The notes below the pieces were generated by a model. It had not been told where the DNA came from. It searched no databases and was given only the letters and a program-made list of their open reading frames with translations. From the NCBI RefSeq assembly GCF_032854445.1, contig NC_088300.1:16399191-16463190 (forward strand): a stretch of 64,000 bases of DNA, in the 5' to 3' direction. A program made the translations under genes and the position numbers. The stretch is from Liolophura sinensis (Eukaryota > Mollusca > Polyplacophora > Chitonida > Chitonidae). Positions 12,201 to 51,045 of this stretch are shown piece after piece. How positions within the stretch are numbered: position 1 is the stretch's first letter; each line of letters begins with the position of its first letter.

Positions 12201-15200
12201 AGTGTTTTATTGTGACATATTTCACTTTAAAATCACTATTATGTTGTAATATTCTTCAACCCATCTCTTGTTACATTCTTCATTCTGCCATTTTATTTCA
12301 CTGCCACATATTTCACCGGACTTTCACCATGCTCTTGTTAAGCTTTTACCCCACTGTTATAAAATTATTGCCGCATATTTCACCATGTTGTCAACATGGG
12401 ATCTCTTTCAACATGGGTCTCTTACTACAGGGATCAATCTGCCGTTTTATTTCACCGCCAAACATTTCACCGTACTTTCACCATTCTCTTGTTAAGCTTT
12501 TACCCCACTGTTATAAAATTATTGCCGCATATTTCACCATGCTGTCAACATGGGATCTCTTTCAACATGGGTCTCTTACTACAGGGATCAATCTGCCGTT
12601 TTATTTCACTGCCAAACATTTCACAGTACTTTCACCATTCTCTTGTTAAACTATCCACCACACTGTTTTGCCCTACTTTCAGATATTTCACAGAACTTTT
12701 TATCATTGTTTGGTCACACTTCACTGTTTTCCTTCATTCCCACTTGTTTCATTCTTTTGTTTCAGTTTTCGCCCTGTCATTTCACCTGGCCGTGCTTGCA
12801 ACCACGATAGGCTTACTCATCCGAGGAGATGACGTGTTTGCATTTGACTTTGAACAGCTACCCATCGTTCTGAACACGGAAACGAGCCATTTGCGGGATC
12901 TGGCATGGGATTCCCGGAACAAATACCCGGAGCACCTCACCCGGGTCATCATCAGCCGTTACATGCCCTGGTGGCCGCGGGGTTACGCCTTTGACTACGT
13001 GGAGATGATTTACCAACATGGCGATAATATCCTGACACCGGCTAATCTGATGCTAATCCAAGACATCGAGGAAAGGCTATATAATAACGAGAATTACACT
13101 AATGCGTTCTGCCAGGTGAAATACGATCAGACATGCTGGAAACCTACGTCTCTCCTCAGGTTCTTCGATGGTTCGTTCAAACATATTGACAGGGCCTTCG
13201 AAGATCCCACTTTTTCTAATGTCCCCCGTGTGCTACATAAGGCCAGCTATTACAACGAGACTAAGGGTGACTTCCGTGAACTGGTCAGCGCGGACGGTGT
13301 GATATCAGAGACTAGTGCACAGTCCAAAGTCATCAGAACGCGCATCCCTATCGGGGGACCTCTTACATACTCCGATGGCCCCATAAAGGAGAAACCAAAG
13401 TACACGAATTTCCTCAAGAATATTTTCCAGCCAGAACTGGAAGATATTGTGGAAACCTACAAAGACAAAATGGACATTAATTATATCAGTAACAAATTAT
13501 TCCGCTTGGATCTCAACGACCAAGCGTTTTTAGACCTTCGTCTCGCCATTGGAAGCCAAGTGTTTATATTTGTCTACATGCTGATGCACACCGAGTCTTT
13601 ATGGATCACATTTTGGGCCTGTTTTAGTATCTGCACCAGCTTCCTGGGAGTGAATCTCTTTTATAGATTTGCGCTAGGCTATACATACTTTGGATTCTTC
13701 CACTTGCTCTCAATATTCATCATTTTAGGCATTGGAGCAGACGATGTTTTTATATTTTATGACATGTGGCGCTTGAACTGTACCAAAACATTTCCTAGTG
13801 ATGCTCACCGCTTAGCAGCCACCTACCGTCGAGCAACCCGTTCAATGCTCGCCACGTCTCTTACCACCATGGCGGCGTTTCTAGTTAGCGGTCTTTCGCC
13901 TTTGTTAGCTGTGTCTACTTTTGGGATATTTTCAGGCCTGTTAGTACTAGTAAATTACATATCGGTCATCACCTTTTTCCCAACTGTTGTGGTAGTTTAT
14001 AGTTTAAGAGTGCTTCCCTTACTCTGTAGTGGAATTGATTTTGTGACTGGAAGAGGAGCAAAAAAGACAAATGACACCCTCGGTCAGGTCAATACAGGAT
14101 TTCAGGAAATATCCGGAAGACCCGCGCTCACATATACCCCGGAGAAGATAATGCAAAACAATTTATATCTCACAGAAACTGATAAATCGAACACAGGCAT
14201 TGGAAATTACCAATTGGTCGCCAATGGTCATATAAGGAAAAGAGATGCCCATATGCCAACAACAGATGCACCATCAGGCGCAAACGGCCATATATCAACA
14301 AAAGATGCACATATGCCAAAAAATGGCCATATACCTACCACTGATGTCCATATACCTACCACTGATGCCCATGTGCCAACACAGTCACCGGTTACAAATG
14401 GTCGTATAACGACCACAAATCAGCCATTAACACATGTAGACGATGTCTCCAAGTCTTGTGCTAATGGAGCATGTTTTTTCGGTAATGAATTACCAACTGG
14501 GACCGGAAATTCTGACAATTCACCCAATGCGTCACAAAACTCATCTTCCCACAAAATAGGACACAGTCTTATAATGTTACGCCTCACCAAGTTTCTGAAA
14601 TCCACTTATTACAATCTGGTGACGTCATTGCCTGCTAAGATCATCGTACCTGTGCTGTTCCTGGCAGTATTCATTGTATTCCTGGTGTATGCAATAAAGT
14701 TAGCGCCGGACAAGAGACAGGTAAGTAAAGATGTATATGTCTTAATTGTGCACGAATGCATCTGACGCCCCAAGCAAATCCTTTAACAATGACTAGGCCT
14801 ATACCTGTATATCCTGTATAAATACATACTTTCAATTTTTATTATTCTAATTATCATACTGCTTTCAAATAATAATTAACAGGTTCAATGGAAGATTAAG
14901 TGTTAAAAATAAATGGAGCACATAAATAAAGAAACCTATGCGTAATAACATATAATAACATTATTTTGGGTTAGAGCGAAGGATTCAATTTTGAATGACG
15001 GTGAATAGATGTTTTAGACATGAAATCTCATTTCCCTATGCCTAAACATTTATTTAATCGTGATTTATGCCCTCAAAACCGTCTTCGGGAGCTGACCGAT
15101 AAAAAACATTTGTTTATCCCAAGTTGGTCAAAAATTTTACATTATATGGAGGTACTGCAACATTCCCTTTATACAGAAAATTTCGTCAGCTGTTTTGATG

Positions 15201-18200
15201 AAAATGAAGAAGATACATTCATTTCTTTTTTAATATAGTTTAGTGCGATTTCACAACGTTAATGCATACATATTTTCCCAATGGTAAAACTTTTAGACAG
15301 ATACCTGTGCCAATATAATACTTATTGCTAGTTATCCATTTAAATTATGCTTTTTGTTGTATTTTCCCTCAGGTACGAATGTTTAGAAGCAGTCACAACT
15401 ACGGTCGTGCTCAAGAGCTGAGGGCATATTCATTTGCGACAAACCCCCGAGATTTGACCACGGTGAAGCTCGTTTGGGGCCTCCAAGAAGCGGATATGTC
15501 TTCGTGTGACTTCAAGTCCTCTAAAGTCTGCGGAGGAAAGCCTGTCTTTGACCCTCACTTTGAATTTGGATCCATTGAAACACAAGCGGCTGTCTTGGTA
15601 CCGTATTCTTCAGGACATAATCCAAGATGATAATAATATATTACATCATGACTTTGTAGTCTGTATAGAATTGAAAACATGAAAATCGCTGTATGAGAAT
15701 GAACCGTTGATTTATTTATTTATCTATTTCATTGGTGTTTTACGTCGTACACAAGAATATTTCACTTATACGACGGCGGCCAGCATTGTGGTGGGAGGAA
15801 ATCTGGCAGGGCCCGGGGAAACCCACGGCCTCGCCAACGGCCTGACATTCGCAGCTATATCGAACTCTTTAACTACCTAATCCATGGAGCGGCTTTATAT
15901 CTTAATAATACCGTACGTTCAGGAAGGTTTGATACAGGACATCGGAGGCTACTTTAAAGAACTGTTAAGTGTAGTGACAAAGAATGTATACTTTTCATTC
16001 AACTCATTTAAACTAAAATGCTCTGCCACCATAATATTGGCTGCCGCCGTATACATGTAAGTGAAATATTCTTGAGCACGGCGTATAACACCAATCAAAT
16101 AAATGAATAAAGTAAAATGTAGTTACGAGATGTTGTATTCTAATTGTGAAGTATTGTCAAACATTTACGAAATAGTAGATTCAAACCCTTGTTATTGTAG
16201 CTGCTAATCAATTTAGATGGTTTCAAATGCTGGTTATTACAGAGACTTTGTCAGCGATTGCGGAACCTCACAGATGAGCAGATTGATGACCTCCACATCA
16301 GACGAAACCTTTTTACCAATCAACCGGAAATTGCATGCTTCATGGAAGCGGCGCAGGATTTCTTCTGGGTAAGTTCGACATTATTTTCCGTCTACCATAT
16401 TAACGTTAATAATTGATGTTGAGGGCTTATATCACGAGAATACATCTGTTCTTTTCAGTTAACGATTTAAGCTGTGCTTTTGTGGCTAGGGTGGGGGAGG
16501 GGGGGGGGGGGTTGACGATACCGCCGAAGTTGCATTGGAGTTTACAGTTCAGTTTCCATTTGCTGTTTGTTTCAGAAAGAAAAGTACAAAAAGTTCTTTA
16601 ACGGCCAGAGTTTTTACCCAGAAAACGTCACTTTTGACTTTCCGTTCACGGACGAGCACATGAAGATCATCGTCAGAGCTAACGCCAGGATTTACCCCAG
16701 CCTGAACAAAATGAATTTCACCCGTCCGCTAGAGGTACACTGTCTAAGACAAGATGCTATTTATGATAAAGGCTGGTTAAAGCAGGGAGGTGATGACCAA
16801 GAAATGCAACAAAACACTACAACAGTACCACCTCGACAACAAAAAGCCAGGGCAACCTCAGCTGTGAAACACTACCACCGAACAACCTCAGCAATCAAAC
16901 ACTACCACTGAACAACCTCAACAATCAAACACTACCACCTAATAACCGAAACAATCAAACACTACCACCGAACAAAACATCAACAATCAAAAGCCACCAC
17001 CGAACAACATCAACAATGAAACACTGCAACAGAATAACCTCAACAATCAAACACTACCACTGAACAACCTCAACAATCAAACACTACCACTGAACAACCT
17101 CAACAATCAAACACTACTACTGAACAACCTCAACAATACAACACTACCTCCGAACAATCTCAACAATCAAACACTGCCACAGAACAACCTCAACAATCAA
17201 ACACTACCACTGAACAACCGCAACAATCACACACTACCACCGAACAAAACATCAACAATCAAACACCACCACCGAACAACATCAACAATCAAACACTGCA
17301 ACAGAATAACCTCAACAAAAAAATATTGTAACAGAACTACCTATAGTGTTAAACATTGTAACATAACTTCGACAAAATAGAACATAACTGGATAATCTCG
17401 ACAACAAAACTGTCACAGAACAACCTAAATAATGAAACACAACATCGTCAATAAAAAATATTGAAAGAGAACGAATTCAGCGAAAAAATCACTAAAAAAA
17501 GGCAACCTTGACAATAACACAAAATACAATAGAACCTCAACAATGAAAAGACACTATCGAACCAGCCTTGATAATGAAATATCTTTAAAACAGAAGCTCT
17601 GTATTAGAACACTGTGACAAAACTATCACGGAAATTATCCACTGTCCAGTAGTAGAAGACGAGTCGCCAAAGAGACCACCAGGACGATATAAAATAGTGG
17701 TGTCGGAACCGAGGTTGTGAGGGATGGTAGGGTCCCAATACACCCCTACTTTTCAAGTGGTGAGACCCATATATGCTTGGGTAGATTTTAAACTGCCATT
17801 TTTAATCTTTTTGAACTTTTAAAAATTTTGTTAACCATACCTGTATTACGTACTCTTCGAATAACATGTCTCTGTGTCTCCACTTTTAATGCTAGCTCTA
17901 GAACAAGTATATGGCAGTCTAAGCGGCCCCTCGACTCTCGCCTTATGTGCTGGGGTCAGCTTTTAAAACAGTCATTTTCAGCATGTCAGTTTTTCAGCTT
18001 ATACCCTTCAGATCCCATCTCTCGGTGCCCCAAAATGGCTGAGATCTCATCTACGGCAGCCAAGAGTCACGGAGCATCCGGGGCCGGGGCGACCCTTGTA
18101 CCCTTGCCGTGTGTGCTTTGATAGTAGCCACCCCCCAACCACCCGCACACCTTTAATTCCCTTCAGACGCCACTGTGAAATAATAACTGTGTAGTTATTG

Positions 18201-21200
18201 ACTTTAAAGGAATGTCGTTTTAAATGATGGCATAAAACACTGCAAACATAGTTTCTACCGTGATGCTTGATTCTGCAAAAAAAAGTTTTACCTCTAGATT
18301 TGTAGTCATTTAGAACTATTAAAAATAATTATAGTAATTATAAATTATTATAAAAAATAAATGAACAGAGTTTTGTTTTAAACAGTAAACAAGGTTTCTT
18401 CAATTATGTTTTTTAAAAAAAGACAATTTTTTTGATTTTCAATTTATATGATATGTTTTATTACTTACTATATTTTATTTGGGGCTCCCTAGATGGCACT
18501 TAGTTATTGGCTAAGTCGTGCGTGGACTCAACTGGCTTCCGTGGACTATTACCTGTATCGAGGACTGATAGGGGAGGTAACCCTGAATGAAACCAGAGCA
18601 TTTAGGAACCAAAGAGGTAGGCAAACTAATATTATCAATTTATTTTTTATTTATCTTTTATTATTTATTTACTTATTTGATCTTTGTTTAATGTCATCAA
18701 CAACTGTAAGCCGCGTTCTCACGGAGCGATTTGTGAAATCGATCTGTCCTATTTTCATGCGAGTAGTCCAACTTGATAAATCGACACGATAAATCGCAAG
18801 ATGTGAACCCGGAATACGCGTGTATCCATCTCAAACCTCATAAGCCAGAGGCTGCCAGGCGAACAAATGACCGAAGAGGTGATGCTATTTCCATAAATAC
18901 ACTAATTTACATATTAACATATTTAGATATGCAAGATCCTTCCGCATGGGATCCAATATATTGCCATTGATTGATTGATTGATTTACCGATTGTAGCTTA
19001 AGGTCACACTTAATAATTTTTCACCTATACGATGGCGGTCAATTATATGGGTGTAGGAAACCGAGGTGCTCGGAGTAAACCACCGACCTTTGACCTTTGA
19101 CAGTTACTGACGTTATTTACCACCGGTGGTCATCAACGATCGTACTCAGAAAGAATGAAGAAATATAGATGTTAATCTTTCAGCACTCTCCTACAACAAA
19201 GTACTTCGCTATTAAATGTAATGGCACATTGTACTCTAAAATAACTTATTTAGGATATTCGTCTTGTAGCATTCCCCTACAACATGGGGATAAAGTAATG
19301 CGCTATTGAATGCAATGGCACATTGTACTCTAAAATAACTAACTTATTTAGAATATTCGTCTTCCAGCACTCTCCGACAACACGGGGATAAAGTACTTCA
19401 CTGTTGAATGTAGTGGCACATTGTACTCTAAAATAAATTATTTACAATATTCGTCTTTCAGCACTCTCCGACAACACGAGGATAAAGTACTTCACTGTTG
19501 AATGTAGTGGCACATTGTACTCTAAAATAAATTATTTACAATATTCGTCTTTCAGCACTCTCCTACAACACGGGGATAAAGTACTTCGCTGTTGAAGTTA
19601 ACACCACAATGTACGTCAACACACTGGGTTACCAGGAGGGTCTGCCGATCTATGAGAGATGGGAGACATTGATGAATGACCTGGTGAGTCAAATTGACGA
19701 GGGATAGCTTTTTATTTACAGTTGTATAACAACATCCTCAAGAATTTTTAACTTACTCGATCGTAGCCAGTGATTATGGGTGGAGGAAATCGGCGTGTAT
19801 GCCCGAAAATATACTTTTTGACTTTTCAAAACATCAGTCATATTTACTGACTGATGTTCTCCACTAAAGTTCATGTAAGAACTGTGGGAGTGGTAAGCGC
19901 GTTAGTGCAGGGCAATGACCCAGAAGCCTCTCACCTATGCGGTCGCTGTGAGTTCAAGTCCAGCTCTAATTGTACATGGGAAGGTCGGGCAGCAACCTGC
20001 GGATGGACGGGGTTTTCCGCCAGGCTTTGTCCGATTTCCTCCTACAATAATGCTGGTCGTGATGGTATATAAAGTGAAATATCCTGAGAACGGCTTAAAA
20101 CACTGATCAGACAAATAAATAGATAAATGTAAGAACAATGAAAGCTGGGGATCCTTAAAACCCTTCGTTTGATAACGGTAATAAACCCACGTATCGTGTG
20201 ACCCATAGCGACTGAAGGACAAGCACCTTAACCTCTTAGGCAAAAATCGTTCAAGATGAGAGATAGAGGCGGTACTGTGAAACCAACTATCTGTGAGGGT
20301 TAAAATATTCTTTCTATATTATCTTAAATGATGGAGAGAAGGACTAAAATCAACATTTCAAGCGAGATTATTGAGGCAAAATTTCCTATGAAATGATTTA
20401 AGCAATTTCTGATATGAAATAAATGGATTAATAAAAATTAACACTATTTGATACCGACAATTCGTTTATCGATGTCAAAAATTTCTTGATCAATATAGAC
20501 ATTTCCTTATCTACATCCACAATAAGGCAATTCATCAATGTTCTTAAATTTAGCAAAAAGAGCGAACACGAATTGCTCACATCCTGTGAGCTCATTATAA
20601 TAAATCAGTGTCCAGGCCCCAAGATCACGAAGCGATCTAAGACTTAAGTCAAATTTTTAATTTCCAAATATGGTATGTTCCTTTCCATTAGTATAGCTGA
20701 AATTTATTTTACAACATCTTAACCAGAATTTATATTGGCATGCAATATTTTGCCATTATTACATCGGAAATAACAATATCAGAGTGATTTGAAACTTTGA
20801 CTTAAGTTTGAGATCGCTTCGCGATCCCAGGGCTGGGAATAAAGATTTCATGGCCATTAAGAAAACTTAAAAGTATTTTAAGCAAAAATGTATTATTTCA
20901 AATAAAATTATCAATTTCGATTCATATTTGTTAGAAAGATGCAATCGTTATTGTTTATATTGGTAAAGTTTATTGGCTTTTTTATCGTTAACAACAACTT
21001 GGCACCTATGTTGGTCAATGTTGTTTATGTTGGTTTTTTGACATAGTCTGAAATTTATTGTTTTCATTGAACTCATCTGTACGATTGCACTTTTAATGAC
21101 TTTTATGATGTTACTTAACCTTGCATGTTGAACTCTAAAAATGTGCCCCTTGTGTTTTAGCTGAAAGACCTCCCATATCCCCTGAAACGCGGCTTCCAGT

Positions 21201-23029
21201 TGACTGGAAATACCTGGCATTGGTTGAGGATACAACAGGTATACCTATGCATGATAAATATAAGTAAAACAACAGTGTTCTGGTTTTCACTTATTCAAAT
21301 TAAAAAAAATATTCAGATAAAAGAGGTTACGAAACCTGTTGCAGAGGGTAAAGCTTTTTGGCGGAAAGATCGAAATTTAAAGTGCCTCCTAAAGACCTCT
21401 AGGGTCGATTTAATATATACACGACGCATAAGACCAAAATACCGAATCTGAATTTAATATACCTAAAAACAGAAAGAAACGCGTAATTCAGTCAAAGGTA
21501 GACAACCTACAGACTCTTTCAGAGGAAATAAATTGCTACACTTGGTGTTTTTCAAACACCTATATAACTAGTCATTAATCTTTGGATTTTACAGACTTTG
21601 GCGAACGCGGCCATTTACGGCGTTGCTATTGGACTAAGCTTGGCACTTCCCATTCTCATCGTTACTACACAGAACATTATCATTGGGTTTGTGGCAACAC
21701 TGACGATTGGCTGTGTTACCGTATGTGTGATTGGTATGATACCCATGGCAGGGTGGAGACTAGGAGTAAGTGTCTTCCACCAGCTGAATTCTTTATTTAT
21801 TTCAAGTTATTGCTCATTTGTTATGTTACGTTGCAAATGGGTCTTGGTTTGTACTTATCCGCTCGAGTGTGGGTGAGTACGTGGGTCTGTATGTGTTTGT
21901 GCATACATATTGGTGGGTGCGTAATTTTGTGAGCAAAGTGTTTCAAAATTATTAAGGCTGTGTAAATTTGGTTAACACCTCCTTACCACCAATGTCATGA
22001 TCATGTCGTTTATATATTATAAGCTATACTGCCAGTGGTTAGGAACTTTGACGTCAGATCAACATTTTCCTCATTTTTAGGACATTTTTAGGCGAATTTT
22101 TTAGGACAATACTTCAGTAATCTTTCACTCATGAGTTATAAGTGCTACTCCTGCATTAAAGCTGTGATTAGAGAAGGAAAAACTTCTTGCGAAAAACACC
22201 TCCTATATGATTCAAAAGGTTCATAAAGCTCACAATACAAGTTAAATCTCCTTAAAAAATGTTTTAAACATAAATGAAAACATTTTTACGTTTCCATCTG
22301 TCTGTCTCACTGACCTCATCACTGTTTAGCTTTCTACACACAGCGCTTTTTATGACCTTATTTAGCTATGCCGATTTCTATATCGGATACCTGTCAATTT
22401 TCGTGATAGTTCCACGATTTGCATGGACGCGAACCTTTAAGATTTGTCCTAAGTTGATGGTATTTATTTTAAAAGTGCACGATGCGTTAGTTCTGAAAAT
22501 GTGAAAGTTTCTGCATTGTGCTACTGAATGTCATCGTGTAGAATGAAATTGAGAAACGACTCCATAAATTTGCTAAAAGTTGTGTGTTTGTCTACTTCAG
22601 GTGTTGGAGTCGCTGAATCTTTGCCTAGTTGTCGGGCTCTCCGTGGACTATGTTGTTCATCTGGCGGAGGCGTACCACCGCTGTGAGCTAGGCAGCCGTG
22701 AGGATCGCGTCAGGCACATGCTGGAGACTGTCGGAACCGCCGTGCTGTCAGGGGCGATAACTACGACTGGCGCCTCCATATTCATGCTCTTCGCGGAAAT
22801 TCAGTTCCTGCTCCAGTTTGGCGTATTCATGTTGACAACTATTGGCTTCTCTATTTTGTTCTCATTATTGTGGTTCTCAGTGATTATGGCTGTCTGTGGA
22901 CCACAGGGAAGAACTGGTTCGTTGATTGCCTTGTGTCGTACATGTGACCCTCGAAAATGGACACGTAATGCGAGTCTGCCAACACAGGAGATTCCGATTG
23001 CCCATGGAAAATTCAAGATTTCAGGTTGA
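9129..23029 (+). CDS. disp: Dispatched-family RND / sterol-sensing-domain membrane protein, complete, 10 coding exons
   Basis: Joined coding exons: 9129-9237, 12766-14720, 15373-15597, 16243-16368, 16576-16734, 18493-18616, 19556-19683, 21161-21238, 21595-21765, 22601-23029. All introns are GT-AG, phases match at every junction, and the total is 3504 nt (1167 residues plus stop). Visible features: first TM about residues 33-55; sterol-sensing TM bundle about 296-453 with GIGADD at 358-363; a large, repeat-containing loop about 455-660; TM7 about 662-680; extracellular domain 681-968; and a C-terminal TM bundle from 969, with GLSVD at 1037-1041 and GPQG soon after the last helix. RND members of this family carry GxxxDD in TM4 and GxxxD in TM10, acidic residues linked to cation-driven transport, and all are present here. 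Dispatched proteins release lipid-modified Hedgehog from producing cells. The GLSVD-to-GPQG stretch resembles Dispatched more than Patched. The paralogue, and Hedgehog as substrate, are inferred. Confidence 0.85.
10935..11060 (+). mobile_element. SINE family B, fragment
   Basis: Contains the family B signature GTTCGTTGAAGGCCATTTG, then ATGGTGTGCATATTTGTAC, and AACTGGCCAAAGGTCGGTGG. It matches copies at 25470, 32235 and (inverted) 50838. Lies in intron 1 of the Dispatched-like gene. Confidence 0.65.
11077..11258. mobile_element. TTAA-flanked MITE, copy 1
   Basis: Starts GGGGATACAGAATCGACG and ends CGATTCTGTATCCCT, inverted ends of about 27 bp. It is flanked by TTAA (11073-11076) and a decayed ATAA (11259-11262). 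About 75-80% identical by eye to the copy at 57625. TTAA target use is typical of piggyBac-type elements; the superfamily assignment is an inference. Confidence 0.7.
11687..12199. repeat. Long inverted repeat (about 80-bp arms) in intron 1 of the Dispatched-like gene
   Basis: The left arm at 11687-11767 and the right arm at 12118-12199 are near-perfect reverse complements (for example TGTTCTTCACTGTCATATAT against ATATATGACAGTGAAGAACA). They are separated by about 350 bp of CT-rich DNA with TTTCAC motifs. It could form a stable hairpin in the pre-mRNA. Confidence 0.85.
12284..12765. repeat. 154-bp tandem repeat ending at the exon 2 acceptor region
   Basis: Two full units (12332-12485 and 12486-12639, starting CTCTTGTTAAGCTTTTACCC) are about 97% identical, with partial units on both sides. 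The right partial copy decays into the polypyrimidine tract before 12765. Confidence 0.88.
12766..14720 (+). CDS. disp: Dispatched-like gene, coding exon 2 (large exon: TM1 end, first lumenal domain, SSD, cytoplasmic loop, TM7)
   Basis: Acceptor TTTTGTTTCAG, donor CAG|GTAAGTA. The exon covers residues 37-688: the rest of TM1, an extracellular domain of about 240 residues, the sterol-sensing TM2-TM6 bundle with GIGADDVFIFYDMW, and a hydrophilic loop rich in Thr, His and Asn. In that loop, residues about 523-575 carry short imperfect repeats of the type GHIPTTDAHMP. TM7 ends at LAPDKRQ. The open frame continues upstream of the acceptor into intronic repeats back to 12396; that part is intron, not protein. 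A single exon this large in an otherwise finely split gene is notable. Confidence 0.9.
15373..15597 (+). CDS. disp: Dispatched-like gene, coding exon 3
   Basis: Acceptor TTTTCCCTCAG, donor TTG|GTACCG (weak but in frame). Phase 0 at both ends; residues 689-763. It encodes the start of the second extracellular domain with a FRSSHNYGR segment and cysteines in SSCDF and KVCGG, likely disulphide partners. Reading past 15597 gives a short non-homologous tail, so the splice is preferred. Confidence 0.85.
15712..15885 (-). mobile_element. SINE family A, truncated
   Basis: Shows the reverse of the tail module (GTACACAAGAATATTTCACT, then ACGACGGCGGCCAGCATTG), with an (AAAT)-type tail at the left end. 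In intron 3 of the Dispatched-like gene. Confidence 0.8.
16028..16108 (+). mobile_element. SINE family A, 3' tail fragment
   Basis: GTGAAATATTCTTGAGCACG, then CACCAATCAAATAAATGAAT: only the conserved tail and A-rich end are left. Confidence 0.75.
16243..16368 (+). CDS. disp: Dispatched-like gene, coding exon 4
   Basis: Acceptor TTATTACAG, donor TGG|GTAAGT. Phase 0 at both ends, 42 codons, residues 764-805 (RLCQRLRNLTDEQIDD at the start, QDFFW at the end). This is part of the second extracellular domain. Confidence 0.82.
16490..16511 (+). repeat. Poly(G) tract in the 207-bp intron 4
   Basis: An almost pure G run (GTGGGGGAGG followed by more than 10 G), 65-85 nt upstream of the exon 5 acceptor. 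Confidence 0.9.
16576..16734 (+). CDS. disp: Dispatched-like gene, coding exon 5
   Basis: Acceptor TTTGTTTCAG, donor GAG|GTACAC. Phase 0 at both ends, 53 codons, residues 806-858 (begins KEKYKKFFNGQSF). The upstream intron is only 207 bp and contains a poly(G) tract. A minisatellite starts about 90 bp after the donor. Confidence 0.8.
16842..17335. repeat. About 30-bp minisatellite in intron 5
   Basis: Tandem units on CAACAATCAAACACTACCAC followed by TGAACAACCT, with length variants. About 16 units begin about 90 bp after the exon 5 donor and decay towards 17600. Confidence 0.88.
18493..18616 (+). CDS. disp: Dispatched-like gene, coding exon 6
   Basis: Acceptor GCTCCCTAG, donor G|GTAGGC. Phase 0 in, phase 1 out; residues 859-899 plus one base. 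It begins MALSYWLSRAWTQLASVDYY. The phase-1 end joins exon 7 as G|CA (Ala). Confidence 0.8.
18961..19130 (-). mobile_element. SINE family B copy with (TTGA)n edge
   Basis: ACTTAATAATTTTTCACCTA followed by TACGATGGCGGTCA and AGTAAACCACCGACCTTTGA, the reverse of the family B tail. In intron 6. Confidence 0.65.
19171..19600 (+). repeat. Tandem duplication of a splice acceptor plus exon 7 start (about 94-bp unit)
   Basis: Four degenerate copies precede the true exon, with exon-like starts at 19184, 19270, 19368 and 19462; the functional exon starts at 19556. Spacings are 86, 98, 94 and 94 bp. Each has a pyrimidine-rich acceptor (for example CGTCTTTCAG) and a version of CACTCTCCTACAACACGGGG, then GATAAAGTACTTCGCTGTTG. 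The copies diverge from the exon after GTTGAA and share an AT-rich spacer ending CTAAAATAAATTATTTACAA. Confidence 0.92.
19556..19683 (+). CDS. disp: Dispatched-like gene, coding exon 7
   Basis: Acceptor GTCTTTCAG, donor CTG|GTGAGT. Phase 1 in, phase 0 out; residues 900-942 (LSYNTGIKYFAVEVNTTMYV and onward). Of the five similar acceptor-plus-exon-start copies between 19184 and 19600, only this one keeps an open frame through to a consensus donor, so it is called the functional exon. Confidence 0.85.
19886..20129 (+). mobile_element. SINE family A, near full length
   Basis: tRNA-like head with TGGTAAGCGCGTTAGTGCAG (box A region) and GTTCAAGTC (box B, 19952-19960), a central part, the tail module in changed form (GTGAAATATCCTGAGAACGG) and an (AAATAGAT) end. 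In intron 7. Confidence 0.85.
20613..20836. mobile_element. MITE-like foldback element, GGGGCC family, copy 3
   Basis: The left end GGCCCCAAGATCACGAAGCG with ACTTAAGTCAAA is inverted at the right end (TTTGACTTAAGTTTGAGATC, then GCTTCGCGATCCCAGGGC). About 224 bp, in intron 7. Confidence 0.65.
21161..21238 (+). CDS. disp: Dispatched-like gene, coding exon 8
   Basis: Acceptor TTGTGTTTTAG, donor CAG|GTATAC. Phase 0 at both ends, 26 codons, residues 943-968 (LKDLPYPLKRGFQLTGNTWH and onward). It is the last extracellular segment before TM8. Confidence 0.82.
21595..21765 (+). CDS. disp: Dispatched-like gene, coding exon 9 (TM8-TM9)
   Basis: Acceptor GGATTTTACAG, donor GGA|GTAAGTG. Phase 0 at both ends, 57 codons, residues 969-1025. 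It is strongly hydrophobic and encodes two membrane helices (around AIYGVAIGLSLALPILIV and IIIGFVATLTIGCVTVCVIG). Confidence 0.88.
22601..23029 (+). CDS. disp: Dispatched-like gene, terminal coding exon 10 (TM10-TM12, C-terminus)
   Basis: Acceptor TCTACTTCAG; TGA stop at 23027-23029. Residues 1026-1167. It contains GLSVDYVVH (Asp1041 of TM10), the AITTTGASIFML helix, a last helix, and GPQGRTG just inside the membrane. The cytoplasmic tail is short (about 45 residues) and ends FKISG. No canonical AATAAA is close downstream; a 24-bp minisatellite begins about 450 bp after the stop. Confidence 0.9.
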   Translation: MLESLNLCLVVGLSVDYVVHLAEAYHRCELGSREDRVRHMLETVGTAVLSGAITTTGASIFMLFAEIQFLLQFGVFMLTTIGFSILFSLLWFSVIMAVCGPQGRTGSLIALCRTCDPRKWTRNASLPTQEIPIAHGKFKISG

Positions 23030-28587: not shown

Positions 28588-29363
28588 TCATAGTTTCACT
28601 GTACTGTAGTATTTCTTTGATCGTTCGATAGACTCTTTTGCATCGTACAATGGAGAGTAGTTGAGGAGTTTCCTGGCCTTAGAACCGTCATAATAGCAGG
28701 TGGTGCATGCCATGAGCACTTCGCGCGTGGAGACAGGTAGGGGCAAGCGGACGATAGGGGACAGCAGCCACACGAACAGCTCCATCAAAAGCACGGTGTA
28801 ATAGATGGCGAAGAACGGAATATAAAACGGCAACACCTTCCAGTTCCTGGACTCAACGAATACCTTGAAAAAAGCGAAGTTGTTGTCAATAGCTGTGTCA
28901 TCAGTGGCTAGATAAGCCTGACCACAGACTGTGGGGTCCTGTCGGGCCCGCTTCCAACCACACAACTGGATCCAGGCGGTGTTCCCCACATAGACCTTCT
29001 GCATGATGACGTCATGGGACCCCATTCCACACAGAATCCCTCCGCACATCTTAGCCGCCTGTAGAGCCGCTGTGACAAACGTATGGTCCCCTTCTCCATA
29101 TATTCCACAAGGGCGAAAGGATATCGTCCTCAATGTTGAGCCATTGGACAGTTTTCTGCCGTCATAGGACAGCACGAGTTTCTCAGCTGCCCTCTTTGTG
29201 TTGGAATAGTCTCCCAATATCAGATCCTTGTCCTCAAAGTTCTCGGCGTCCTCCTCACGATGGTTGAGGACTGGTTTGGAACCACGAGCCAGTTCTGATG
29301 AACTCGTGTAAATTAACATGGGAACATTGTGCGATACACACGCATCCAGTATTGTCTGTGTAC
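28588..29363 (-). CDS. HSD3B: HSD3B-like gene, terminal coding exon 4 (catalytic YxxxK, membrane segment)
   Basis: Minus-strand acceptor TTCTGTTTCAG; TGA at 28590-28588. Residues 130-386. It begins TQTILDACVSHNVPMLIYTS, holds the catalytic YSNTK (Y181, K185), the RPCGIYGEG motif and the hydrophobic stretch LPFYIPFFAIYYTVLLMELF, and ends STVKL. The G|GT joint with exon 3 restores NVEGTQ, typical of the family. Confidence 0.93.
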
Positions 29364-32300
29364 CTGAAACAGAACAACTGATTTACATGATTGATGTCTT
29401 ACCTCATGATTGATGTTTCATTGAATTAAAAATGCTGTTGATGGCCGTGGGTTTCCCCCGGGCTCTGCCGGTTTCCACCCACCATATTGCGGGCCGCCAT
29501 CGTGTAAGTGAAATATTCTTGAGTACGGCGTAAAACACCAATCAAATAAATAAATAAATTAATAAATAAATAATATGGGCGTCTACGAAAGTCTACGAAA
29601 GACGTATATTGGGGAAAATGAGGAGCTGAACATCCTTGAACTTGAGATGGATTCTTTCATTTGTGCCTCGAGAAAGTGAAACCGGATACATTTGGTCTGA
29701 ACAGACATTTTTCGACGCGTTCACAATTATGGTCGATTTGATTCACCAAATGCCGGATTGTCCAGAACAGATTGAACTAGTCAATTTAATCTGAGGCTAA
29801 TCTCATTTACCTCAGATTTCTGTAAACACCATACGATCAAATTATTAATTTATGCAAAATGCTAACACGATAGTATTCAAGGTAATCGATTTTGTATGAA
29901 GGGCCTGGCATTCTATTTATTCATATGGTTAGTGATTTACGCGGTACTCAAGAATATTTATAAGACGGCGGCCAGCATGCATTATGGTGGGAGGAAACCG
30001 GACAGAGCCCGACGAAACCCAAAACCAACTACAGGTTGCTGGCAGACATTCTCACGAACGACCAAATGGGGAGCCAGCATGAGCTGACTTTGAACTCACA
30101 GCGACTGCATTGGTGAAAGGCTCCTGAATGAGTATGCAGCATTATTTGGCTAACCACTCGACCATGGAATAGAACACCAACCCAATATCATGCGTCACCC
30201 CCAGCCCCTACCACCACCCCCGGTCTTCCAATCCAGTGAGACAGTAATACAACATGGCGACAACCGGTCTGCCTTAGCACGAGGACACAATGGCATGAGA
30301 ACAACGAAACAATGTTGAAAGAAACCAAAAAATCTCATGTAACTAGACTGGATAAAATCGCTCTAAGAAATGGGTCATAATGACTGCTGTATATTTCAAA
30401 GAAACGCTTCTTTTTCACTTCAGCGAAGTATAACACAACGCACCAGTAACAGAATCTTGAAGTCTGCGCACACAGGGCGGGCGGTATCTGCGTACCGAGC
30501 AGTAATATACGATAAAAGGAGACAACAGATGTATGATCTCACCTTCCACATTGACAGAGGTGATGTACTCGGTGTCCTGCAGAGTAGAGATGTCAACAAT
30601 AGAGGCAGTGTGGAATACAGCCGTCACTCCCTCACAAACCAGGTCTAGGCAGGCCCGCTTCCTCAGGTCACCCTTCACGTGAGTGACCTTAACCTTGAAG
30701 TTACCTGAGGAGAGAATAACCATACAGAAGAGGTTCTGGGTAAAAAAATTAAAATGAAGCAAAATCAAAATTGACAACAAAGGATACATTTAAGACCAAT
30801 CCAAGTATACAAGTTTCTCCACTGAACGTGCGTTCAGAAACTACGCTATATCACCCCCTGAGATGGGTTCAGAAACTCAACAGTTCCAGAAAATGATCAA
30901 TACGTAAATAAATCATTTTTTTTTATTTCACGGATGTTTTTGAATTCAGGATTATTTCAATAATACGGCAGAGGCCAGAAAAAAAAACCTTCATTCTTCA
31001 CACAAACCCTAAACACCAGAGTAACTGATTGTTGTACAACCCATACAAACGATATAAAACCATATGTTTCAAATCCAAAATGTTTCAAACGCTGTTGTGT
31101 TGAAATAGAAATCACGGTGCATATTAACTCTGCTGCAGCCAATCAGCATTTATACTACAGGAATCCTTGGCTTTACTGACGCCGCTTTGATTAAATACCG
31201 CTTCCAATTAGAGAAAGAAGACACTCGAGTGATAAGCCAATATCGTACTCATCCCTGGAGATGCAATTTGTTAATAAAAATAAGTCAATGTATTGCTGTA
31301 GAATGTCACCGGTGACTTGAACAGTATTTGGATACAGCCATGCAGCCTCCGGAGTGACTGATCTACTGGCTAATTACCGCGCACATTTCCCTGAAGGTCT
31401 GCGCAAGGCTTATGTGTGACCTGATTTCCGGAGCCAACACTTCCCGCAGTGGGACCGTTTAGACAGAGACGTCCGATAATTTAGACCAACTAGACTGCAT
31501 TGCAGCCGACTGAGCTGGCCCTAGACATCGTTTTGTGTCCGAGATAGGGCCAATTTGACCCATAATCTGAACGATTAACTTAGTGCAATGTAGTTCAATT
31601 TATTTATGTGTCTCACGTTTTGGCTCCACGGGTTATTGATGTCTATATGCATCGATAAGCCCTACAATAACGAGTATCCTTAACTGGCAGTGATACATAA
31701 AATACGTCGATTTCCGATGCTTTTGTCATACGGAAACACACTGGATTTTATTTTACTTAATTTGCGCAATAAAACGTATTTAAATGTTAGTTAAAATGTT
31801 ATTCAGCCAATACATCACATCTGGCATTGCTTAGCGCAATGAACACGCGAACGACAAATGTCAAGTCATATAAAAAAAAATGTCTTCTAAATCTGTAGCA
31901 TAACTCAAAGACGCAATCTTTCCATGGAGCAATAGCCAGTCGTTTGCAGGGCTTTCAATAAGTTTACTGGCAAGGCTGGCTTTCGTTATTTCAACGCGGT
32001 AAGAAGTAAAGATGCAAATCTTTCAATTCTGAGAACTGCTCCAACTGCTTACAACAATTATTATTAATGCTCATGTATTTTCGACATATCTTGTGCTAAG
32101 TTGGAATAGGCCTACGCGTAAATAGTTCACCTTTCCAGTGTTTTTTAGTTTAGGTATTGATGTTCTAACTCCTTCGACACGAGGGGTGGGTTGAAATCAG
32201 GCCTTGGACAGAATTGTACATTCCTCCTCACTCACTTGTGAAGCCTTGGATATAGTAAGCGGTCTAAGACACTGGTTGGCCGTTAGGTAGCCTTACGTTG

Positions 32301-50837: not shown

Positions 50838-51045
50838 TTTGTTTGATTGTTGTTTAACGCTATAGTCAAGAAATTTTTTTTTATTTTATAAAATATATGG
50901 GTGGAGGAAACGAGAGTGCAGGGGATAAACCACCGACCTGTGGCATGTTACTGACGAACTTTTCCACAGGTGACGTAGGAATATATACAGCAAATTGTCT
51001 TCAGTGAGCGTCAGACCGCTCAAACGGTCACACTTTAAGCGTCGA
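50838..51045 (-). mobile_element. SINE family B copy
   Basis: GTTGTTTAACGCTATAGTCA tail module, GGGTGGAGGAAACGAGAGTG, ATAAACCACCGACCTGTGGC, ACTGACGAACTTTTCCACAG, then CCGCTCAAACGGTCACAC at the head end. Confidence 0.75.

Follow-up and report, generated by a model that had tools for sequence, protein, structure and literature searches.

Minisatellites which cross an exon-intron boundary have been described in lancelets and in human. In amphioxus, the genes BflGb6, BflGb9 and Adh3 carry mirages, which are tandem copies of the end of an intron together with the start of the following exon (PMC3087553). The mirage of BflGb6 showed six copies in one haplotype against three in another, and it was suggested that such boundary-spanning minisatellites may be general among cephalochordates (PMC3087553). 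Splicing was reported to be undisturbed on the basis of Adh3 data and reverse transcription PCR of the globins, though many copies keep splice signals (PMC3087553). The lancelet PGBD5 gene possesses repeats of 60 bp and 108 bp, present in different copy numbers in two genome sequence versions; Adh and TnC are named as further repeat-bearing lancelet genes (PMC3902484). Normal splicing is reported for globin, Adh and TnC, while it is only inferred for PGBD5 (PMC3902484, PMC3087553). In human, internal tandem repeats at exon-intron boundaries were found in recent paralogs, where novel introns and alternative transcripts are reported (PMC2812944). Here, an array of similar design is described in the chiton Liolophura sinensis, where four additional copies of a splice acceptor and of about the first 41 exon bases are situated directly upstream of exon 7 (19556-19683) of a Dispatched-type gene. 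The DNA analyzed is a window of 64,000 nucleotides, which corresponds to 16,399,191-16,463,190 of contig NC_088300.1, and all positions are counted in this window. The species name of the assembly, first given as L. japonica, was later changed to L. sinensis (PMC12441733).

The features of the locus are given below. The acceptors of copies 0 to 3 are referred to as decoys 0 to 3, and a slash marks the end of an exon. All splice scores were obtained with consensus frequencies that do not derive from Liolophura sinensis.

12766 to 22916, forward strand: modelled stretch of the Dispatched-type gene with nine exons, drawn from open reading frames, splice signals, and domain and structure matches.
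18493 to 18616, forward strand: exon 6 in the numbering of the initial annotation, with an open frame, splice signals and a phase 1 end (G/gtaggc); donor score 8.8.
18617 to 19555, forward strand: intron 6, 939 bases, with the array in its 3' half.
18964 to 19128, forward strand: repeat-derived left flank, composed of a SINE-like (short interspersed element) piece at 18964-19041 and a further piece that has a relative at 50891-50972, found by blastn within the window.
19184 to 19269, forward strand: copy 0, 86 bases, following its acceptor TCTTTCAG (last base 19183); its exon-like part has an 8-base deletion, and its stop is at 19213.
19270 to 19367, forward strand: copy 1, 98 bases, following its acceptor GTCTTGTAG (last base 19269); its stop is at 19296.
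19368 to 19461, forward strand: copy 2, 94 bases, following its acceptor GTCTTCCAG (last base 19367), which has the top score of the five (9.5); its stop is at 19499.
19462 to 19555, forward strand: copy 3, 94 bases, following its acceptor GTCTTTCAG (last base 19461); its stop, at 19593, lies inside exon 7.
19556 to 19683, forward strand: real exon 7, 128 bases, with a phase 1 start, a phase 0 end and the donor ctg/gtgagt, drawn from splice signals and the structure match.

The successive copies are spaced by 86, 98, 94 and 94 bp, the real acceptor ending at 19555. This agrees with the initial annotation, which had reported four extra copies of acceptor and exon start 86-98 bp apart and had quoted the acceptors CTTCCAG and CTTTCAG for the copies at 19368 and 19462, both of which are present in the sequence. 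Its length of about 45 copied exon bases was somewhat too long, as the close match stops at +41. Tandem Repeats Finder (TRF) detected the array at 19198-19596 with a period of 94, 4.2 copies, 89% matches and a score of 601, far above chance. The array thus spans the acceptor at 19555, that is, the exon-intron boundary. The repeat unit is composed of 53 intron bases and 41 exon bases with the splice signal included, and the repeated part of exon 7 is its first 41 bases. From left to right, the decoy copies (19184-19555) pass from decayed to near-perfect and are followed by the real exon 7. A search of the species' own assembly, which skips very common words, gave one match and one candidate for the array.

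On the basis of its sequence matches, the gene is of the Dispatched type. Its first large exon matches the sterol-sensing and Patched SSD domains, and the six exons from 16576 onward join in frame. When these six joined exons were compared with solved structures, to which the comparison of gene identity was confined, the best match was Dispatched 1 (E-value 2e-25, query residues 99-324). Dispatched structures (2e-25 to 1.9e-15) ranked above weaker matches to Niemann-Pick C1 types (7.6e-07 at best) and Patched (1.2e-04 at best), and thus above the other SSD/RND proteins. The Dispatched 1 match covers exon 7 apart from its first few residues, hence this exon is taken as genuinely coding. Some exon ends of the model are uncertain, notably those of 15373-15597, 16201-16368 and 22601-22916.

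Comparison of individual copies showed that the inner members are nearly identical. Copies 2 and 3 share 93 of 94 bases, and the 53 intron bases before copy 3 are all identical to those before exon 7. In pairwise alignment, 12 mismatches and 4 gap positions separate copy 1 from copy 2, and copies 0 and 1 agree at 77 positions, with 9 mismatches and 12 gap positions between them. Of the 41 bases in the exon-like part, 39 (copy 2), 38 (copy 3) and 35 (copy 1) are the same as in exon 7. Past +41 the match drops to 14 of 25 bases (19597-19621), in frame (Fisher p = 0.0002, 0.001 and 0.018 for copies 2, 3 and 1), while blastn extends the match to +59. A breakpoint at +41 accounts for most of this pattern. 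On the left side, the sequence before 19184 was compared, as a possible fifth intron part, with the four others; 404, 12, 52 and 43 of 2000 shuffles were as good with the acceptor bases, and 469, 192, 436 and 398 of 2000 after removal of the last 15 bases. The latest gain or exchange of a copy may be so recent that it is still variable in the species, because the single difference in 94 bases between copies 2 and 3 is close to the heterozygosity of the assembly, 1.24% (PMC11068029).

The chiton array and the BflGb6 mirage are alike in design, both being minisatellite-like copies of an intron 3' end and an exon 5' end before the real exon. Their unit lengths are of similar magnitude, with 10-72 and 150-160 bp in amphioxus and 86-98 bp in the chiton, and decoy splice signals are retained in many amphioxus copies as well as in the chiton copies. 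In the amphioxus mirages some neighbours are alike and boundary copies are excluded from homogenization; in the chiton copies 2 and 3 are alike while copy 0 has diverged. The two differ in host, a chiton against a cephalochordate, and copy-number variation and normal splicing are reported for amphioxus. The PGBD5 repeats touch both 5' and 3' splice sites and belong to another gene and phylum. The human boundary repeats share with the chiton array the position of a minisatellite at an exon-intron boundary, and novel introns and alternative transcripts are reported for the human cases.

Taken with these likenesses, the chiton array is probably a boundary-spanning minisatellite of the amphioxus mirage kind, in which the last acceptor is used and the decoys are removed as intron. 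A short tandem duplication would have taken in about 53 bases of the intron end and 41 bases of exon 7 from its start. Further copies would then have come from unequal exchange or slippage, which would also have kept adjacent copies similar to one another, the acceptor and beginning of the real exon among them. Exon 6 would most likely be joined to the last acceptor, and the decoys would be spliced out as part of the intron; they would be tolerated because the last acceptor adjoins the full exon with a good donor. The suggestion of the initial annotation that the decoys are tolerated and the last acceptor wins fits the amphioxus splicing reports. The array looks like an ordinary unstable repeat, presumably devoid of function, and nothing observed shows that it regulates the gene.

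Two observations weigh against this explanation. The first is the residual similarity past +41, where the 14 matches in 25 bases were equalled by only 28 to 57 of 20,000 shuffles, a figure which is optimistic given that the test was applied post hoc and in one register. A simple breakpoint at +41 does not explain it; the similarity may be due to chance or to a short stretch of homology around the breakpoint, or it may stem from a longer exon copy of greater age, overwritten later in its first part. The second is that the decoys retain good acceptor signals, with scores of 6.0, 7.2, 9.5 and 8.7 for decoys 0 to 3 against 8.7 for the real site. Across the gene, ten modelled acceptors, a set that includes the real site and two alternatives for one exon, score from 5.1 to 10.4.

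These signals are the ground for a rival explanation, that the decoys act as poison acceptors. Transcripts spliced to them would stop early and be removed by nonsense-mediated decay, and the copy number would tune the output of Dispatched. All four decoys score above every other AG of intron 6, the next best of which reaches 4.7. Decoy 3 is identical to the real site over 84 bases, from -76 to +8, including the branch-like motif at -18. Use of decoys 0 to 3 would add 372, 286, 188 and 94 bases up to the real start. The initial annotation had described a 94-bp read-through, not a multiple of 3, for any decoy; a length of 94 is added only by the last decoy, and 372 is a multiple of 3. Copy 0, which adds this length, meets its own stop 30 bases in. 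An early stop upon decoy use had also been predicted, and frame tracing extends it to all four decoys, the frame from 19462 ending inside exon 7 at 19593-19595 as claimed. Every stop precedes the exon 7 donor, by 468, 385, 182 and 88 bases for decoys 0 to 3. Messages with premature stops placed in this way would, by the usual rule, be targets of decay.

Such sequence features predict that the decoys could be used, not that they are. In addition, the layout of the real branch motif and acceptor is found only in decoy 3. In decoys 1 and 2 an AG lies at -18, just behind branch-like motifs at -22 and -26, and in decoy 0 the only branch-like motif is at -9, so that decoys 0, 1 and 2 should be weakened. 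Copy 0 has decayed, with its 8-base deletion, and shows no apparent upkeep, and amphioxus arrays of like design are reported as normally spliced. Poison acceptors are considered unlikely. A stronger form of it would have a living minisatellite overwriting the acceptor and the first 41 coding bases of a Hedgehog-pathway exon, with real and decoy sites interchangeable and with copy number setting, heritably and variably, how much poison splicing Dispatched undergoes. We regard this form as distinctly improbable.

Alternatively, the copies could be remnants of alternative exons that had been duplicated, or a nascent intron or exon. The weak in-frame similarity to exon 7 past +41 is in line with this, and a 42-base exon would keep the frame in copies 2 and 3 if it ended at the GT of AAT/GTAGTG (19409, 19503). 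However, this GT scores 1.1 and the best GT in the array scores 3.2 as a donor, against 8.8 for exon 6 and 10.8 for exon 7. The score of this best GT is lower than those of eight of the nine modelled donors, the ninth being an uncertain exon end with a score of 1.3. Because no GT of the array scores above 3.2, the copies are unlikely to form closed exons. The real exon 7 donor is found in no copy, and the exon-like part is interrupted by a stop in copies 0 and 1, so that the copies do not qualify as whole exons with a donor and open frame of their own, as mutually exclusive exons would. When introns are gained by tandem duplication, the duplication supplies additional splice signals, and premature stops make decay relevant (PMC2891723). 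A new intron of this type needs both an acceptor and a donor in the duplicated site, while in the chiton array only the acceptors are strong. An origin from duplicated alternative exons, or as a nascent intron or exon, is judged very improbable. An assembly artefact is hardly credible, as the copies differ in bases and in insertions and deletions, and assembly error is an unlikely cause because HiFi reads, with a mean of 8,347 bases at 14X (PMC11068029), can span the 400-bp array.

The window is rich in tandem repeats. After 48 TRF rows were merged by hand, 22 arrays with units of at least 10 bases cover 10.4% of it. Only one of the 18 modelled exon boundaries is inside an array, against 1.9 expected from coverage if arrays are placed anywhere and selection is ignored; the position of the array upstream of exon 7 therefore needs no special cause. 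Three other repeats lie in or near the same gene. A 21-bp repeat at 14243-14381 inside the large coding exon encodes a GHI/HMPTTDA-like repeat in the Dispatched-type protein. A 154-bp repeat with 2.4 copies (12280-12649) ends about 117 bases 5' of the acceptor of the large exon, whose frame is open from 12363 on. A 30-bp minisatellite with 15.4 copies (16853-17318) is situated in the intron after the exon ending near 16734.

SINE-like elements are common in molluscs. A SINE-like repeat is found in the window, for example at 15700-15880 and 19894-20130, the first piece having 19 more matches in the window with E-values up to 1e-3, some of them short. A dispersed repeat or transposon as the source of the array unit is unsupported, since the search of the own assembly gave a single match; the array does have repeat pieces on its left flank. 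Neither the literature searches for SINE strings nor the search of genome and viral contigs for one SINE pattern gave a match. Scans of the window for RNA families at gathering scores and for tRNAs with bacterial settings also returned none, and a scan for bacterial promoters and terminators is meaningless for an animal gene. On the minus strand, an open frame of 264 amino acids at 28588-29382 presumably resembles the 3-beta-hydroxysteroid dehydrogenases.

The array appears to be novel in its phylum and in having a decoy which near-perfectly twins the real site. No boundary-spanning minisatellite of a mollusc was present among the literature matches listed, a coverage mostly without subscription journals. 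Among them, the closest case was an abalone gene whose intron holds a variable 27-bp minisatellite, which the passages concerned do not describe as crossing a boundary (PMC6905558). The twin decoy is a natural test of the choice between two equal acceptors 94 bases apart, since no signal within -76 to +8 can decide between them. The occurrence of a mirage-type array in a mollusc suggests that such arrays may originate wherever minisatellites abound in a genome.
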